A DNA stretch of 64,000 nt from Opitutus sp. GAS368 (GTDB lineage Bacteria > Verrucomicrobiota > Verrucomicrobiia > Opitutales > Opitutaceae), in contig NZ_LT629735.1 of the NCBI RefSeq assembly GCF_900104925.1, forward strand, positions 3,951,001 to 4,015,000. Reading direction: 5' to 3'. The notes under the pieces were generated by a model. That model did not search any database. It saw nothing but the letters and a program-made list of their open reading frames with translations, and was not told the origin of the DNA. Both the position numbers and the translations under genes were made by a program. How positions within the stretch are numbered: position 1 is the first letter of the stretch; each line of letters opens with the position of its first letter. Shown one piece after another: positions 17,226 to 41,190 of this stretch.

Positions 17226-19459
17226 GCCCGCCCAATCCCACCTTTTCCCGCCGTGAATTCATCCGGGCCTCCACGCTTGCCGGCGGTGGACTTGTCCTCG
17301 GCTTCTACCTGAAATCGACTCCGACCCTGTTCGGCGCGGAGTCGCCCGCAGCCGCGGGTGACTTCACCCCAAACGCCTTCATCCGCATCACGCCCAACGG
17401 CGTCATCACGATCATCTCCAAGCAACCCGAGATGGGTCAGGGCGTCAAAACCTCCCTGCCCATGATCATCGCCGAGGAGCTCGAGGTGAACTGGCAGGAC
17501 GTCGTCATCCAGCAGGGCGACCTTAATCCCATCTACGGCGGCCAGAGCGCCGGCGGCAGCACCTCGACGCCGAACAATTACAGCGACTTCCACAAAGTCG
17601 GCGCCGCCGCGCGCATGATGCTCGTCGCGGCCGCCGCGCAGACATGGGGGGTGCCGGTCACCGAGTGCGACGCCCGCGACGCCGCCGTGCATCATCGCGG
17701 CTCCGGCCGCAGGCTGGGCTACGGCGAACTGGTGGCCAAAGCCGCCACGCTGCCGGCGCCCGACGAGAAGTCGCTGCAGCTGAAGGACCCGAAGGACTAC
17801 CGGATTCTCGGCACACGCATCGGCGGCGTGGACAACCGGAAGATCGTCACGGGCCGGGCGCTCTTCGGCATCGACCAGCAGCTGCCGGACATGCTTTACG
17901 CCGTGTACGAAAAATGCCCGGTGTATGGCGGCAAGGTCGTCAGCGCCAACCTCGACCAGATCAAGGCTTTGCCCGGCGTGAAGGACGCCTTCGTGATTGA
18001 GGGCACGGCCAACCTCACCGGCCTGATGCCGGGCATCGCCATCGTCGCGGAATCGACCTGGGCGGCGTTCAGCGCCCGCAAGCAGCTCAAGGTCACATGG
18101 GACGAGGGCAAGGTTGCGGACCAGAGCTGGTCCGGCTTCGTGGCCCAGGCCCGGGAACTGTCCACCAAGCCCGGCGCGACCGTCGTGCGACAGGACGGGG
18201 ACGTGACCGCGGCTCTGGCCGGTGCCGCCAAGGTCGTGGAGGCGGAATACAGCTACCCGTTCATCTCCCACTCGAACCTCGAGCCGCAGAATTGCACGGC
18301 TCATTTCAAGGACGGGGTGATGGAACTCTGGGCGCCTTCGCAGAATCCCGGCAGCGGCCAGAACCTCGTCGCCCAGGTCCTCGGCCTCCCAAAGGAAAAG
18401 GTCATCGTCCATCTGACCCGCAGTGGTGGCGGCTTCGGCCGGCGCCTGAGTTCGGACTTCATGGTGGAGGCCGCGGCCATCGCCCGAAAAACCAGCGCGC
18501 CGGTGAAGCTCACTTGGGCGCGCGAGGACGACCTGCGGCACGACCACTACCGTCCCGGCGGGCTGCATTTCCTCAAGGGTGCGGTGGATGCGAACGGCAA
18601 GCTGGTCGCGTGGCAGAATAATTTCTTCACCTTCGGCAACGCCGTGACCCGGGACGGCAAGACGGTCGTGCAACCCGGCAGCGGCGGCAGTTTCAGCCCG
18701 GATGAATTCCCCGGCCGCTGGGTGCCCAACTTCACCGCGGAGATGACGGTCTTCGAAACCGGCTGGCCGATGGGCCCGTGGCGCGCCCCCGGCAGCTGCG
18801 TGTTCGCGTGGGTCGTCCAGAGCTTCATCGACGAGCTCGCGCACGCGGCCGGACGGGATCCGTTCGAGTTTCGCCTGGAATTGCTTGGCGACAAGGACGT
18901 GATGCCCGGCACCGGTGAACGCGGGCAGGCTTACAACGTCGGGCGCATGCGGAATGTGCTGAAGCTCGCCGCCAGCAAGTCTGGCTGGGGTCAGAAGAAA
19001 TTCCCCAAGGGCCAGGGTCAGGGCATCGCGTTCCATTTCAGCCATCGCGGCTATTTCGCCGAGGTGGCGGACGTCACCGTCGCCCCCGATGGCACGCTCA
19101 AGGTGGACCGGGTGGTCGCCGCGTGCGACATCGGCGCGCAGGTCGTCAACCTCAGCGGTGCGGAAAACCAGGTGGAAGGGTCCATTGTGGACGGGCTCGG
19201 CGCCGCGCTGTTCGAGGAGGTGACCATCGAGCGCGGCCGCGCCATGCAGAGCAATTTCCACGAATACGCGAAGATCCGCATCACGAACGCCCCGGCCAAG
19301 GTGGAGATACACTTCCTCAAAACAGACTATCCGACCACCGGCCTCGGCGAACCGGCCCTGCCGCCGCTCGCTCCCGCGGTGTGCAACGCCATTTTCGCCG
19401 CCACCGGCAGGCGCCTCCGCTCGTTCCCGCTTTCGCGGCATGACCTGAGCTGGTCGTGA
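17222..19459 (+). CDS. iorB: molybdopterin-binding large subunit (IorB type), Tat-exported
   Basis: Catalytic subunit of an isoquinoline-1-oxidoreductase-like molybdenum hydroxylase; such enzymes hydroxylate N-heterocycles or aldehydes. The 745-residue protein starts with a twin-arginine signal ([10 protein letters not shown] followed by [10 protein letters not shown]), so the holoenzyme is likely periplasmic. Family motifs include [38 protein letters not shown] and the late [13 protein letters not shown] with the presumed catalytic glutamate. A short stretch near residues 150-160 ([12 protein letters not shown]) fits the family poorly and may be a local compensated frameshift or true divergence. 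The substrate is unknown. Confidence 0.92.
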
Positions 19460-20953: not shown

Positions 20954-23136
20954 CAGAGGGTCATCTCTTGCTGAGCCGGTTGTGGCTTAATCCCGAGGAA
21001 ACGTCCATAACGTTCCAGCCAGTCGTCGATTTTTCCCAGATAATATACAGGATCGTAAGGCGCCGCGGCGGCATCGTGCGCCGCCAGGGGCCGGGCCCGC
21101 TGCCAGTCGGAGGTCTGGCCCTTGGCCTTCGGCCCGATGAAGTAGCTGACCCGCTCGCCCATCCGGGGGCGGGGATTCATCTGCAGGGCGACTTCCGCCG
21201 CGGCCCGGCGCGGTTTGCCGCCGCCGGCGACCCACTGCTGGTAGGCCTCGGGATTCTGGCTGAGGGTCTCGGCCTTGGCCAGGTCCGCCACCGGTTGCTC
21301 GCGCGCGGCGATGGTCTTGCGCAACCGTTCGATTTCCGTGACGGGCGAAACTTCGGACACGCCGAGCAGGTACGCGATGAGCAGGTCGCCCAGCCGTTTC
21401 AGAAAGGGCTCGATCCCGCGCGACCGGAGGGCCGAACCGCGCAGGGTGACCTCGCCGCCGGCCGCCAGGGCGTAGTTCTTGGCCTTGTAGCAGAACATCG
21501 CGTCGTAGGTGCCGTCGTATTCCAGCTCGATGCCCGCGGGCAGGATCTTTCCCACCAGGGCCAGCAATTCCTCGGGCTTCGCGAAATACCTGTCCGTCGA
21601 AAGGTAGATGCCGTCCGTGTCAGCCTCGAGGATGGTGCAGCCGTGTTTCTGGAACTCCTCGATCAACGCCTGCAGCAGCTCGCGCCCACGCCGCGTCACT
21701 TCCGCCGCCAGTTCGCCGTCGCCGAAGCGCGCCCCGGAGAAGCCCAGGTAGCCGTAGAAGGAATTGATGAGGATCTTGAAGGTGGCCTGCCGCGCCTGCG
21801 CCTCGTCGCGCTCGGCCGCCGTCGGGGCCGCCTTGGCCAGCTGCTTGTATTTCAGGCGGTACTCGCGGAGCCGCCGCAGCATCGGGATGAACACCCCGAG
21901 CGTGTCGCTCGCCGGGTTCCGGCCCATCTGCAGCAGCAGGCTCGGGTAAAGCGACGCGACGTCGAAGTGCAGCACATGTTTGAACACCCCTTCCTGGAAG
22001 CTGCGGGTGAAGCCGCCCTCGAACGGCGCGATGTCGATGGGCGCCGGGCAGCTGGCGCGGGCATGGTAATATTCCTCCAGGAACAGCAGGTCCACCTTGC
22101 CGGCCGTGCCGCGCAGCGCGGCCTCCTGCAGCAGGAGGGGGAACGCCCGGGCCTGTTCGAAATAGGTCGGCAGCAGCACGTCGGCCAACCCCCGGGTCTC
22201 GCGCAGATCGTCCGCGAGATAGGCCAGGAACTCCTCCCGGTTTTGCCGGAACGTGTGCTGGATCTCCGCCCCGTCGATGTAGGTGCGTCCCTCCCCTGAT
22301 TCCGGCGTGATGCCGAAATAGACCGCCGCATCCTTCAGGCCGTAGGCGGTCATCTCGCGGGCCGTGATATCGTAGAGCTGGACCATCAGGTAGGTGTCGA
22401 TCACCGCCCGGCCGGGCAGGTCGCAGCGGGAGAAATCGATCCAGCGCTCCGCTACCTTCATCTTGCTGTTGCGGAATTCGGCCGGCAGGCCGAAGCGGCC
22501 CCAGGCGCACGGCACCTTGAGGCGCTTCGACCGGGTGCGCAGGTAGTCGAGGTCGAACTTGAAGATGTTGTGACCCTCGATGACGTCGGGGTCGAGTTCA
22601 CGCAGCATGTCATTGAACGCCAGCAGCAGCCGTTTCTCGCCGGCGTCAGTCTCCTCGCCCAGCGTCAGCAGCTCGCGCCGGGTCCCGCACTGCAGGCCGA
22701 TGGCCAGCACCCGGTCGCCGGGATTCTTCGCGTCGCTGAAGGCGCCGGCTTCGGCCGCGCCGGTCTCGATGTCGAGCTGGCAGCGGCGCAGGTCGGCGAA
22801 CTTCAGGTCGGCATACAGCCGCGCGCGTTGCTGCAGCAGCCACTGGCTCTCGTAGGGCTTGAGCACGTCGATCGCCGCGCCCTCGCGCACGGCCTTGAAG
22901 AACACCTCGAAGCTGCCCAGCGATTCGGCGTGGGCCAGCCAGTTGAAGGTCCCCTCGCCCTTCAGGCGCTCAAAGCTGATGCCCTCGTGCGGCGTCTCCG
23001 CCGCCAGCCAGGCGAACGGTTTGAAAACCTCCGTGCGCTCCTCGCGCCCGCCCCCGGGCGTCGCGTAGCACCCGTGCACCTTGCCGGCGTCGTCAATCCA
23101 GAGCCCGCACAGGGTGTCGCTGGCCTTGTTTGTCAT
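20953..23136 (-). CDS. family-B DNA polymerase
   Basis: A 727-residue polymerase of the PolB class with a proofreading domain. The exonuclease motifs are CQLDIETGA (I) and VIEGHNIFKFDLDYL (II). Polymerase motif A is HFDVASLYPSLL, motif B KILINSFYGYLG and motif C EADTDGIYLS with the catalytic aspartates. The C-terminal third is shorter than in E. coli PolII (783 residues). It is probably a repair or translesion enzyme. The ATG at 23136 lies in the outer end of an inverted repeat (23131-23214), so the present start may have been created or moved by that repeat. Confidence 0.9.
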   Translation of the reverse strand: MTNKASDTLCGLWIDDAGKVHGCYATPGGGREERTEVFKPFAWLAAETPHEGISFERLKGEGTFNWLAHAESLGSFEVFFKAVREGAAIDVLKPYESQWLLQQRARLYADLKFADLRRCQLDIETGAAEAGAFSDAKNPGDRVLAIGLQCGTRRELLTLGEETDAGEKRLLLAFNDMLRELDPDVIEGHNIFKFDLDYLRTRSKRLKVPCAWGRFGLPAEFRNSKMKVAERWIDFSRCDLPGRAVIDTYLMVQLYDITAREMTAYGLKDAAVYFGITPESGEGRTYIDGAEIQHTFRQNREEFLAYLADDLRETRGLADVLLPTYFEQARAFPLLLQEAALRGTAGKVDLLFLEEYYHARASCPAPIDIAPFEGGFTRSFQEGVFKHVLHFDVASLYPSLLLQMGRNPASDTLGVFIPMLRRLREYRLKYKQLAKAAPTAAERDEAQARQATFKILINSFYGYLGFSGARFGDGELAAEVTRRGRELLQALIEEFQKHGCTILEADTDGIYLSTDRYFAKPEELLALVGKILPAGIELEYDGTYDAMFCYKAKNYALAAGGEVTLRGSALRSRGIEPFLKRLGDLLIAYLLGVSEVSPVTEIERLRKTIAAREQPVADLAKAETLSQNPEAYQQWVAGGGKPRRAAAEVALQMNPRPRMGERVSYFIGPKAKGQTSDWQRARPLAAHDAAAAPYDPVYYLGKIDDWLERYGRFLGIKPQPAQQEMTL

Positions 23137-23214
23137 CCTGAGCGAAGCGAAGGATCCGGAATGATAAACGTCAACGGTCGGGCTGCTGGATGCTTCGCGC
23201 CGCTCCGCATGACA
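23131..23214. repeat. inverted repeat, GTCATTCTGAG family, short copy (diverged)
   Basis: Left arm TGTCATCCTGAGCGAAGCGA (from 23131) pairs with the right arm ending GCGCCGCTCCGCATGACA at 23214, with several mismatches; 30 bases lie between. Same family as 27522-27897, 31808-31891 and 41118-41190. The polB start codon is inside the left arm. Confidence 0.85.
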
Positions 23215-26886: not shown

Positions 26887-27513
26887 ATGTCCGCCGCCGA
26901 CCACCGTCCGACCCCCAAGCCCTGGCCCATGAAATGGGTCGCGGTGGCCATTGTCGTCTTCGTGGTTGGTTACACGGTGGTCAACTTCTACTTCCGCAAG
27001 CCCGGCCGCGCCTACCGGCCCTACCAGGATGCGCAGGACCGGGCGACCACCGCCAGGCTGCTCGCCGCCGGCTGGCAGAAGATGCCGGTCGACGCGCGCC
27101 GACCCGTCGAGAAGCCCGCCGCGGACGACACCCCCGCCGCCGTGACCCGGGCCGCCCTCGGGCTCGGCCCCGACCTGACGGCCAACTTCGCCGAGCAACC
27201 CAAGCTGCTCACGACGATCGACCGCGTCGTCGCGCCGGCCAGCGTCGCCCACGGTGCCGACTACAACGCCTACTTCACCGCCAGTATCTCGAGCCAGAAG
27301 GCGCAGGTCGGCGACCTCGCGCTTTACCGCAAGGGCACCGAGCTCGTGTTGATTCCCAGCACCGAGCCGCTGCCCGGCAAGGACCTGATGAGCCGCTGGA
27401 GCGACTCCACCTATTGCGTGAATTTTTCCACGGCCAACCTGCCGCCCGGCCGCTACCAGGTCCGGATCGTCGCCCAGGGGCCGGCCCTCGCGTGGAGTTT
27501 TACGGTTAAGTAG
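26887..27513 (+). CDS. membrane-anchored hypothetical protein
   Basis: A 208-residue protein with one N-terminal span (MKWVAVAIVVFVVGYTVVNF, about 15-34) and an extracytoplasmic remainder. The Arg/Pro/Ala linker contains KPAADDTP; the C-terminal 90 residues look beta-rich (YNAYFTASISSQKAQVGDLA ... GRYQVRIVAQGPALAWSF). No family recognised. The repeat-boxed GIY-YIG element begins 9 bases after its stop. Confidence 0.6.
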   Translation: MSAADHRPTPKPWPMKWVAVAIVVFVVGYTVVNFYFRKPGRAYRPYQDAQDRATTARLLAAGWQKMPVDARRPVEKPAADDTPAAVTRAALGLGPDLTANFAEQPKLLTTIDRVVAPASVAHGADYNAYFTASISSQKAQVGDLALYRKGTELVLIPSTEPLPGKDLMSRWSDSTYCVNFSTANLPPGRYQVRIVAQGPALAWSFTVK

Positions 27514-27521
27514 TCTTGGTT

Positions 27522-27897
27522 TGTCATTCTGAGCGAAGCGAAGAATCCAGCTCAGCATGTGCGCCCACTCCGCCAACCGCTCGTATTGGGTCTACATTCT
27601 GACCAACCAACGTAATGGTACACTCTATGTCGGGGTGACCAATTCTCTCGAACGACGCATTTGGGAACATAAGACCAAGGCGATTGAAGGATTCACCAAG
27701 CAATACGGTCTCACTCAGTTGGTTCACTTCGAATCATTCCGTGACGTGAGCACGGCCATCGCCCGAGAAAAGGAGATCAAGGGCTGGCTTCGGAGACGGA
27801 AGCTGGCACTGATTGAAGAAGCTAACCCGCAGTGGACCGACTTGAGTGCCGGCTGGTTCGGTAGTTCGCTGGATTCTTCGCTGCGCTCAGAATGACA
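27522..27897. mobile_element. 376-bp element: inverted repeats enclosing a GIY-YIG gene
   Basis: A 30-bp arm at 27522-27551 (TGTCATTCTGAGCGAAGCGA...) and its inverse at 27868-27897 match at 29 of 30 positions. The GIY-YIG reading frame starts 6 bases after the left arm and ends inside the right arm. The same arms occur as short copies without a gene at 41118-41190, 31808-31891 and 23131-23214. No target duplication is visible. Interpreting this as a mobile unit with its own nuclease is inference. Confidence 0.7.
27557..27895 (+). CDS. GIY-YIG nuclease domain protein
   Basis: A 112-residue single-domain protein of the UvrC/homing-endonuclease GIY-YIG superfamily. The first strand is YWVYILTNQRNGTLYVGVT (the GIY and YIG triplets appear as WVY and YVG), Arg/His follow in SLERRIWEHKTKAIEGF, and the late AIAREKEIKGWLRRRK holds the expected acidic metal ligand. 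The last residues (SSLDSSLRSE) and the TGA stop are encoded by the right inverted-repeat arm, so the gene and the repeat are one unit. A DNA-nicking role in moving the element is plausible but unproven. Confidence 0.85.
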   Translation: MCAHSANRSYWVYILTNQRNGTLYVGVTNSLERRIWEHKTKAIEGFTKQYGLTQLVHFESFRDVSTAIAREKEIKGWLRRRKLALIEEANPQWTDLSAGWFGSSLDSSLRSE

Positions 27898-27962: not shown

Positions 27963-29261
27963 ATGAGCAACGGCTCCGACATCAAGCCCACCGACCTGCG
28001 CGGCATCCTGAAATACGTCCCCCGGTTTCAGGGCCAGACCTTTGTCATCGCGCTCGACGGCATTATCGTGGCCGATGACAACTTCCCGAACATCCTGACC
28101 GACATCGCGGTGCTCCGCAGCCTGGGCATCAAGATCATCATCATCCACGGCATCGGCCACCAGCTGGAGGAGCTGTCGAAGGCGCGTAACATCCCGATCA
28201 CCGACGTCCAGGGCAAGGGCGTGGCGGACGCCGCCACCCTCGACCTCGCCATCCGCGCCTCGTCCCGCGTCACCCACCTCATCATCGAGGGCCTCACGCA
28301 GAACAGCCTGAAGGCCGCGCTGACCAACGCCATCCGCGCCGCCCCGCTCGGCATCATCAAGGGTGTGGACCACCAGTTCACCGGCCGCGTCGATCGCGTG
28401 GACAAGGAGTTCCTCATGCAGCTCATCGCCTCGCAGGTGGTGCCGGTGGTGAACCCCATCGGCTTCGACCGCGACGGCCGGCCGCTGCGCATCAACTCCG
28501 ACCTGCTCGCCGCCGAGCTGGCCGAGGCGCTCGGCGCCACCAAGATCATCTACCTCACCCCGCACGAGGGCCTCGAGATCAACGGCAAGCTCCAGCACCA
28601 GATCTCCGCCGCCACGCTCAAGGGCATTCTCGAGGACAAGCCCGAGTCCATCAACGAGCCGATGCGCAGCCCCGCCGCCCATGCCGTCAAGGCCGTCGAG
28701 ACCGGCACGCCGCGCATCCACCTGCTGGACGGCCGCCTGCTGGACGGCCTGCTCAACGAGATCTTCTCCAACGAGGGCGTCGGCACGCTCATCCACGGCA
28801 ACGAATACCAGCAGATCCGGCAGGCGACCAAGCGCGACGTCCGCGCCATCTACAACCTCACCCGCCAGGCGGTGAAACGCGAGGAGCTCGTCTACCGCAC
28901 CCAGGCGGCGATCGAGAAAAACGTCGAGCAGTTCTACGTGTTCGAGATCGACGAGAACATCATCGCGTGCGTCTCGCTCGTGTCCTACCCGGACAAGCCG
29001 AAGTTCGCCGAGATCGGGTCGCTTTACGTCATGCCCTTCTACCATCACCGCGGCATCGGCAAGAAGATGGTCGATTACGCCTGCCTGATGGCGAAGGAGC
29101 GCGGCGCGACCAACGTCATCGCCCTCTCAACCCAGGCCTTCACCTTCTTCACTTCCGTCGTCGGCTTCGAGGAAGCCGACAAGGAGGCGCTGCCGGAGTC
29201 GCGCCTCAAGGCCTACGAGGACAGCGGCCGCAATTCGAAGGTGCTGACGAAGAAGCTGTGA
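27963..29261 (+). CDS. argA: amino-acid N-acetyltransferase (N-acetylglutamate synthase)
   Basis: First step of arginine synthesis, acetylation of glutamate by acetyl-CoA. The 432-residue protein fuses an amino-acid-kinase fold (about 1-290; IIIIHGIGHQLEEL, VVPVVNPIGFDRDGRPLRIN) to a GNAT domain (about 295-420; IGSLYVMPFYHHRGIGKKMV, where RGIGKK is the acetyl-CoA loop). This is the ArgA architecture and length. A few other kinase-GNAT fusions share it, but no arginine genes flank it to confirm. It ends 8 bases before a REP pair. Confidence 0.88.
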   Translation: MSNGSDIKPTDLRGILKYVPRFQGQTFVIALDGIIVADDNFPNILTDIAVLRSLGIKIIIIHGIGHQLEELSKARNIPITDVQGKGVADAATLDLAIRASSRVTHLIIEGLTQNSLKAALTNAIRAAPLGIIKGVDHQFTGRVDRVDKEFLMQLIASQVVPVVNPIGFDRDGRPLRINSDLLAAELAEALGATKIIYLTPHEGLEINGKLQHQISAATLKGILEDKPESINEPMRSPAAHAVKAVETGTPRIHLLDGRLLDGLLNEIFSNEGVGTLIHGNEYQQIRQATKRDVRAIYNLTRQAVKREELVYRTQAAIEKNVEQFYVFEIDENIIACVSLVSYPDKPKFAEIGSLYVMPFYHHRGIGKKMVDYACLMAKERGATNVIALSTQAFTFFTSVVGFEEADKEALPESRLKAYEDSGRNSKVLTKKL

Positions 29262-31807: not shown

Positions 31808-31891
31808 TGTCATTCTGAGCAAAGGGAAGAATCCAGAGTAATGCACGCCGGCAGACATCCCGCTGGATTCTTCGTTGCGCTCGGACTGACA
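31808..31891. repeat. inverted repeat, GTCATTCTGAG family, short copy
   Basis: TGTCATTCTGAGCAAAGGGA starts at 31808 and the inverse GCTGGATTCTTCGTTGCGCT... ends at 31891, 25 bases apart. It splits the ABC operon between the ATPase and permease genes. Confidence 0.88.
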
Positions 31892-41117: not shown

Positions 41118-41190
41118 TGTCATTCTGAGCGCAGCGAAGAATCCATAGGACGTTCGTGCGCATGGATTCTTCGCTGCGCTCAGAATGACA
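41118..41190. repeat. inverted repeat, GTCATTCTGAG family, short perfect copy
   Basis: 29-bp arms (TGTCATTCTGAGCGCAGCGA... from 41118; inverse ending at 41190) are perfect inverse copies around 15 bases. Compared with 27522-27897 it is the same ends without the nuclease gene. Confidence 0.93.

Follow-up and report, generated by a model that had tools for sequence, protein, structure and literature searches.

A GIY-YIG nuclease gene between inverted TGTC-tagged repeats in Opitutus sp. GAS368: a REPtron-like unit with a different enzyme

In the genome of Opitutus sp. GAS368 (Verrucomicrobiota), a gene for a small GIY-YIG nuclease stands between two inverted copies of a repetitive extragenic palindromic (REP) sequence. 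This 376-bp unit lies in a stretch of 64,000 nucleotides, called the window here, which represents positions 3951001-4015000 of the complete genome sequence of 4.15 Mb. The first-pass annotation of the window had described 30-bp arms bounding a 376-bp unit with a GIY-YIG gene, and this description held: the arms are 30 nt each, 97% complementary and 316 nt apart, and the layout runs from the left arm through 5 bases to a 112-codon gene and then the inverted right arm. The parts of the unit are as follows.

27522..27897, plus strand: REP-nuclease unit of 376 bp, arm pair plus gene; the same site is filled in L047, L048 and L162 and empty in the congener G037.
27522..27551, plus strand: left arm, a TGTC-tagged REP with the possible hairpin ATTCT-GA-GC-GNA-GC-GA-AGAAT, from repeat-pair and fold analysis.
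27557..27895, plus strand: GIY-YIG nuclease gene, 112 aa, with its last 8 codons and stop in the right arm; Pfam match, and a ratio of nonsynonymous to synonymous substitution (dN/dS) below 1.
27868..27897, minus strand: right arm, the inverted REP copy, from repeat-pair analysis.

Two details of the frame had been placed differently. Counted from the left arm's inner end, the ATG is the 6th base beyond the arm rather than 6 bases within it, and although the stop codon does lie in the right arm, it is preceded there by eight whole codons (LDSSLRSE) rather than ten. The frame matches the Pfam GIY-YIG domain (PF01541) at E = 7.4e-17 and 61.9 bits, with a cut-off of 22.6, and in 22 aligned rows G26, T28, R33, R34 and H38 are invariant and E71 is kept in at least 90%; by domain and conserved motifs, the encoded protein is a member of the GIY-YIG nuclease superfamily. 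A profile search of PDB matched only the UPF0213 proteins 1zg2 and 1ywl, and a search of a phage collection gave two weak matches, both records of Rhizobium phage RHph_Y65. The source genome has seven GIY-YIG matches, two of which, the window gene (L001) and L002, lie between these arms; the remaining five have none. The two armed proteins are 67% identical and both end in LDSSLRSE; in L002 a single base is inserted in the left arm.

At four loci, only some of the relatives have the gene and its arms. The first of these is the window site, for which the two neighbouring genes, both outside the unit, served as flanks in the comparison with empty sites.

26887..27513, plus strand: left neighbour, a 208-aa protein.
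27963..29261, plus strand: right neighbour, a 432-aa protein, which we take to be argA.

At site 1, upstream of argA, the unit is found in the source genome (G000) and in L047, L048 and L162; the named records with this locus are a Lacunisphaera and an Opitutia metagenome-assembled genome. The congener G037, 91% identical there, has a 60-bp gap and no unit, and among the 30 loci examined, of 59 genomes with a match, only G000 has the nuclease at this position. G054 is empty at this site (96 bp), and a unit with the same arms lies downstream of its argA in the opposite orientation. Site 2, that of L002, is filled in G000, where the gap of 467 bp is about 90 bp longer than the unit. None of 12 other genomes has a nuclease there: the neighbours abut in G037 and G047, 83 bp separate them in G316 and 111 bp in G059, and in the eight remaining genomes the distance is larger or at least one of the two was not found. 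At site 3, between genes presumed to be DUF692-like and DUF2063-like, the nuclease is seen in G037 only (19 loci). G000 has there a 130-bp gap holding a remnant that resembles a gene-less inverted REP pair (REPIN), its right arm broken by an insertion; the flanking genes overlap, abut or are at most 2 bp apart in 11 of 17 other loci and are separated by 17-114 bp in the rest, except in G015, whose gap is unmeasurable owing to a stop inside the first flanking gene.

Site 4 lies on Sphingobium plasmids, of which seven records keep the region at 94.9-100% identity, and about 350 bp are missing in four. When four filled and four empty plasmids were aligned, two of the empty ones were found to keep one hybrid REP, in which the outer portions of the two arms are joined, and the other two kept no REP. 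Comparing filled and empty sites in close strains, a step that the first-pass annotation had suggested, thus gave the result that gene and arms vary as one piece. That the gene and its two repeats come and go together suggests that the enzyme is a partner of the repeats. Three further loci were noted in these comparisons. In the Sphingobium TomTYG73 plasmid (L200, at about 1200-1450) a filled copy has a nuclease gene with a one-base gap, so filled sites can hold broken genes. A unit in G037 (L107, 1438-1824) lies between two adjoining ABC transporter genes, which we take to be an ATPase and a permease of the rbsA/rbsC kind, and is likely within an operon. An apparent empty site in Sinorhizobium was set aside, the gene being present after all and only a neighbouring repeat unit differing.

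The arms belong to a large REP family. A 26-nt core of the arm, at no more than 3 mismatches, has seven matches in the window, where 0.00 were expected from 100 shuffles, and 96 forward and 95 reverse sites in the complete genome, 191 in all; a reversed-pattern control gave 0. Empty copies, presented earlier as a feature of the window, are therefore not special to it. Pairwise layout was determined for 30 loci of the first listed REP sites plus the window. This sample holds 28 inverted pairs, with the TGTC tag pointing outward in all of them and one being the nuclease unit. Unpaired sites are an exact copy standing alone and three weak matches of 6-7 mismatches, the latter probably due to chance. 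Three gene-less pairs lie in the window.

23131..23214, no strand: REPIN of 84 bp, right arm decayed, seen only at up to 7 mismatches.
31808..31891, no strand: REPIN of 84 bp, arms partly decayed, 75% over 36 nt.
41118..41190, no strand: REPIN of 73 bp with perfect 29-nt arms.

All three had been said to carry the same arms as the unit, which is right for the last; the second is decayed, and the right arm of the first is very poor. The view that such short copies are gene-less relatives of the unit is supported. The 84-bp REPINs (n = 11 in the sample) have the spacer consensus CAGCATGATGnnCGCCnGCGGTCATCnTGCTG, and the start region of the unit matches the left half of this consensus in six of eight units compared (fraction of shuffles as good, 0 to 0.014). 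The match is missing in L002 and L093, and L092, being a REPIN spacer itself, was left out of the count. This kinship suggests that the REPINs are related to full units by internal deletion, or that a common signal has been retained in both. Seven other REPINs of 88 or 109 bp, at 18013, 85136, 337734, 764788, 873940, 1154159 and 1168687 of contig C1 of the source genome, are conserved past the arms, with minor variation (aaacccggtt ... ggaaacgggt), which gives the impression that a larger unit spread not long ago.

We then looked for arms around homologues of the nuclease. Eighty distinct loci were assembled from a scan of named genomes (43 loci), whole-genome searches and plasmid records, and arms were counted when the inverted pair scored at least 15 and above 20 shuffles of the locus's own flanks, with controls treated alike. 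Inverted arms were found at 48 of the 80 loci and at none of 18 other GIY-YIG genes (Fisher 1.2e-6). Three weaker matches (L176, L177, L181), excluded beforehand, are armless, and including them gives 48/83; the count leaves out the duplicates L091 and L163 as well as two loci whose flanks were short, and one control was short-flanked too. In four of the 48 (L165, L182, L184, L185) the score comes from outer repeats that belong to an ISL3-like unit, and the arms of L064 and L167 do not look like REPs. The tag has one orientation in 34 of the 48 armed loci, compared with 14.6 expected from random upstream stretches, a loose test. Arms vary among taxa yet often keep their plan, as in CGTCATCCTCGGGCTTGACCCGAGGATCCAG (L056), TGTCATGGCCCGCAAAAGCGGGCCATCCAG (L050) and TGTCATCCTGAACTTGTTTCAGGATCT (L062), and an uninterrupted stem with a loop of 4-5 nt is present in 12 of 21 folded arms. 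Armed loci come from records titled Lacunisphaera, Alphaproteobacteria, Thermoanaerobaculia, Planctomycetaceae, Bacteroidetes, Defluviitaleaceae, Patescibacteria and Nocardioides, those of Nocardioides being of a different type. A homologue in Neisseria gonorrhoeae, 52% identical over 80% of the query, has CGTC repeats on both sides. The search of the genome and its relatives with the arm, which the first-pass annotation had proposed, thus turned up both a genome-wide family and many armed homologues. Homologues are often armed, and gene and arms are present or absent together, the reverse of the two outcomes named earlier as speaking against the reading (homologues elsewhere lacking the arms, or gene and arms never moving together).

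The same survey gave several side observations. On plasmid p1 of Planktothrix agardhii (L192, 1998-2282) a homologue without arms by the criterion above has a type IIL restriction enzyme (MmeI) on one side and the DISARM gene drmA on the other. In Sinorhizobium meliloti Ak57 (L189, 1380-1950) tandem, CTCAT-tagged repeated hairpin units, presumably akin to the rhizobial intergenic mosaic elements, stand upstream of a homologue. A Rhizobium plasmid locus (L188) was dropped as a further unit, since it has no arms by the criterion. In G412 (L184, L185 and L186, at about 1371-1942) a family member with REP-like inner arms is found inside a unit of 569-572 bp that is present in several copies and has outer inverted repeats (GGTTCTTCCGG...), with perfect 8-bp flanking duplications in three copies; we take this carrier unit to be ISL3-like.

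G037 holds three strong nucleases, the third of which (L111) has arms of a second type, TGTCATCGCG...GGCGATCCA. REP sites of the second type number 83 in G037, 71 in G031 and 9 in G410, all of which have a nuclease between second-type arms (L111; L095, with a weak arm pair; and L169, respectively). In the comparison genomes the counts are 0 (G316), 0 (G398), 1 (G000) and 8 (G200), the last in spite of no second-type-armed nuclease having been found in G200; the seven genomes were chosen because some hold such nucleases. A quickly built tree of 77 nucleases requires 4 changes for arm type A where shuffled labels require 11.3 on average (0 of 500 as low), and eight of its rows, of the window's family or from Lacunisphaera and Opitutia records, cluster with support of 88. 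L002 was labelled "other" in this tree owing to the one-base insertion in its arm (it is type A in a 23-row tree), and neighbours in the tree are near-copies. That each nuclease goes with its own REP family is, at the level of sequence comparison, supported but not settled.

Nuclease and repeats also tend to occur in the same genomes. Among 387 genomes of the phylum, 13 are REP-rich, defined as at least 14 matches to GTCATYCN{8,20}GRATCCA, a pattern whose control gave almost no matches. The nuclease, at E <= 1e-20 and with the best 13 or fewer candidates per genome scored, is present in 18 of the 387. The nuclease is present in 7 of the 13 REP-rich genomes and in 11 of the 374 others (p = 1.9e-7). 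In a family set of 61 genomes, a strong nuclease (E < 1e-30) is found in 5 of the 9 genomes that have 20 or more sites and in 1 of the 52 others (p = 1.2e-4). The REP-rich limit of 14 (the next genome has 11) and the E limits of 1e-20 and 1e-30 were chosen after the counts were known, and the Fisher tests ignore kinship, save for reduced versions that omit the window's genus or work at the genus level.

We consider it probable that the REP-nuclease unit is an Ssn-type GIY-YIG nuclease between inverted TGTC REPs that would be its own target, with the ~190 REP sites of the genome as its non-coding relatives. Assignment to the Ssn type is by resemblance: a 2025 paper in Nature Communications reportedly describes Ssn enzymes as GIY-YIG nucleases that cut single-stranded DNA site-specifically, with a target repeated hundreds of times in Neisseria and thousands of homologues, each said to have its own sequence. 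Such a nuclease would recognise its own REP in folded single strands, as they arise in replication or DNA uptake, and cut at or beside the (C/T)GTC tag. GIY-YIG enzymes hydrolyse DNA and, unlike HUH enzymes, do not stay bound to rejoin it, so that a unit equipped with nothing else would depend on recombination or repair by the host. Through REP-REP homology, these host processes would copy or swap the arm-bounded stretch into or out of REP sites, the REP acting as both target and homology arm; the full unit and the empty REPIN would be interchangeable, the unit could be lost, and the REPs would stay on after the gene is gone. The REPIN remnant at site 3 and the hybrid REP at site 4, each found where other genomes have a full unit, fit this model of copying through REP homology.

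Several observations weigh against this reading. Two of the three Opitutaceae sites are free of REPs when empty, which simple homing into REPs does not explain; we dropped strict homing into existing REPs on this account, and, as there is no REP in empty sites 1 and 2, the copying model needs either an earlier loss of REPs or another route of first insertion. Neither of the source genome's two own units has a flanking duplication. Thirty-two of the 80 homologues have no arms by the criterion, one armless homologue is in G052, a genome with 152 REP sites, and in G412 the nuclease family looks like it multiplied as a passenger of another transposon. The trees are not of one voice: four distant rows of the 77-row tree (L077, L080, L082, L173) also have type-A-like arms, and in a careful 23-row tree types A and B need 2 changes each, with 90 and 110 of 500 shuffles as low, while an approximately unbiased (AU) test on it neither shows nor rejects a single clade per arm type (p = 0.31 and 0.33). 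As the 23-row tree fails to confirm the clustering, the main support for each nuclease going with its own REP family comes from how many second-type REPs the genomes hold. Co-occurrence becomes weaker when the window's genus is removed (3/9 vs 11/373, p = 0.003) and at the genus level (p = 0.0004, or 0.007 without one non-cognate case). Six of the 13 REP-rich genomes (G371, G059, G015, G117, G190, G235) have no nuclease at E <= 1e-20 among the best 13 or fewer candidates per genome, or among all candidates for G059 and G015; the clearest is G371, with 173 REP matches. The REPs in such genomes may outlive the enzyme, or another enzyme may serve them.

The alternative that survives best is that the nuclease serves its host, limiting or shaping the uptake or recombination of single-stranded DNA, with the REPs retained as recognition sites and the unit not mobile. 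We regard this as a serious possibility, although one that falls short of probable. The dN/dS of the nuclease between the window, L047 and L048 is 0.03-0.10, that of the adjoining argA being 0.17-0.24; these values were computed without the last ten codons and dS is partly saturated, so that only the sign of dN/dS is safe, namely that the protein is kept by selection. This selection speaks for a host function, as does the position upstream of argA, kept in the window and three relatives. The Neisseria Ssn enzyme is reportedly tied to natural transformation, and the N. gonorrhoeae homologue found here, which may be the published Ssn gene, stands between CGTC repeats. Against a resident host function speak the patchy presence of the nuclease (18 of 387 genomes), the different sites at which close relatives carry units, and the gene-less pairs, which have the same ends as the unit.

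It is unlikely that REP-associated tyrosine transposases (RAYTs), which are HUH enzymes, move these REPs, with the nuclease trapped as a passenger between two of them. The source genome does have nine Y1_Tnp matches, seven of which we read as RAYT-like (L040-L046), and the REPIN layout looks alike. However, the seven RAYT-like genes each lie between inverted repeats of the GTAG, GGAG or GGTGG type (two have similar ones), and no TGTC arm is within 1.5 kb of any of them. Y1_Tnp matches, which include RAYT and IS200 types, are not linked to REP richness either, being present in 11 of 13 REP-rich genomes and 267 of 374 others (p = 0.37; best 11 or fewer candidates per genome), and the part of the 2013 description of CGTC repeats available to us reports no tyrosine transposase flanked by them (PMC3733652). 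Several RAYT REP systems are thus found in the source genome side by side with the GIY-YIG one and, given the other repeats around the RAYT-like genes, the GIY-YIG unit looks like one more REPtron, with a different enzyme.

Very little probability, in our estimate, attaches to the idea that a GIY-YIG gene of the repair type merely happens to fall between abundant intergenic REPs. The abundance of the REPs, the armless homologues and the failure of the 23-row tree to group arm types speak for chance, but no other GIY-YIG gene of the 18 is armed while both family members in the source genome are, the REP family matches the arm type in most of the seven genomes compared (not in G200), and gene and arms are present or absent together. 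That a conventional DNA transposon, presumably an ISL3-like cassette, brought nuclease and REPs jointly is suggested by the G412 units with their outer repeats and 8-bp duplications, yet we find it hardly credible for the window unit, around which a search of 1.6 kb gave no outer repeat of this kind and whose ends show no duplication.

The preferred reading, that of a nuclease acting on its own REPs, bears on a wider group of repeats. REPs of the CGTC kind occur in 5 phyla, with Neisseria dRS3 among them, and seem to be without a transposase dedicated to them; the agent of their spreading was left open, in the part available to us, by the 2013 paper from which they have their name (Di Nocera 2013, PMC3733652). 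We suggest tentatively, as possible rather than probable, that GIY-YIG nucleases are the missing dedicated enzymes of the whole CGTC/TGTC REP superfamily and constitute a second system of "REP homing", parallel but unrelated to RAYTs, in many phyla and including Neisseria and rhizobial repeats, in which hairpin REPs would be cut and arm-bounded cargo copied through host recombination. If true, RAYTs would not be the only kind of REP system but would have a counterpart that works by a different chemistry, and this could join repeats described separately in Neisseria, rhizobia and other bacteria.

The unit can be compared with four known systems. In the available part of their description, CGTC REPs have a CGTC tag that is changed to TGTC in many repeats, an AT-led stem, a CCA-like tail and inverted dimers, and the stems are uninterrupted, of 8-9 bp, with a 4-5-nt loop (PMC3733652). 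The window arm shares the TGTC tag, an ATTCT...AGAAT stem and the CCA tail but differs in that its stem is interrupted and in that the arms bound a nuclease gene; because of the interrupted stem, we describe it as like the superfamily in tag, tail and layout rather than as a member. Its predicted fold, with an internal loop and a terminal loop of 3 nt, has an energy of -1.9 kcal/mol (z near 0), no better than that of shuffles, so that its folding rests on the pattern and on Y/R co-change among the copies, which alternate between TTCT...AGAA and TCCT...AGGA.

With the Ssn enzymes the unit has in common a small GIY-YIG enzyme and a repeated, here putative, target, the difference being that Ssn is said to be described as a nuclease acting on transformation and is also reportedly presented as a tool. 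If the 2025 paper reports flanking repeats, the window unit is an added case of the Ssn family together with evidence of gain and loss; otherwise, what is new is that Ssn-type nucleases are linked to CGTC REPs. The GIY-YIG homing endonucleases have the same catalytic domain and offer the precedent of possible gene conversion of cargo into cut sites, but the window unit has no intron, intein or single target gene and faces many dispersed hairpin sites. The first-pass annotation knew of no description of such a system. For the parts this does not stand, as the arm resembles CGTC/TGTC REPs (in the available part of PMC3733652) and the enzyme class is, given the reported Ssn nucleases, probably already known; novelty can hold only for the combination of REP and nuclease, and the top-ranked literature matches included no publication linking GIY-YIG with REP, RAYT or dRS3 in this sense.

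The fourth comparison is with RAYT (TnpA-REP) REPtrons and REPINs. In the part of their description available to us (PMC8266576), as in the window, one nuclease gene stands between inverted REPs and is accompanied by many gene-less inverted pairs, with the tag outermost and several kinds per genome; the window unit differs in having a GIY-YIG enzyme instead of an HUH tyrosine (Y1) transposase and a (C/T)GTC instead of a GTAG tag. Judged by its sequence, the unit is built like a RAYT REPtron and is not a member of that class, as it has no HUH tyrosine transposase.
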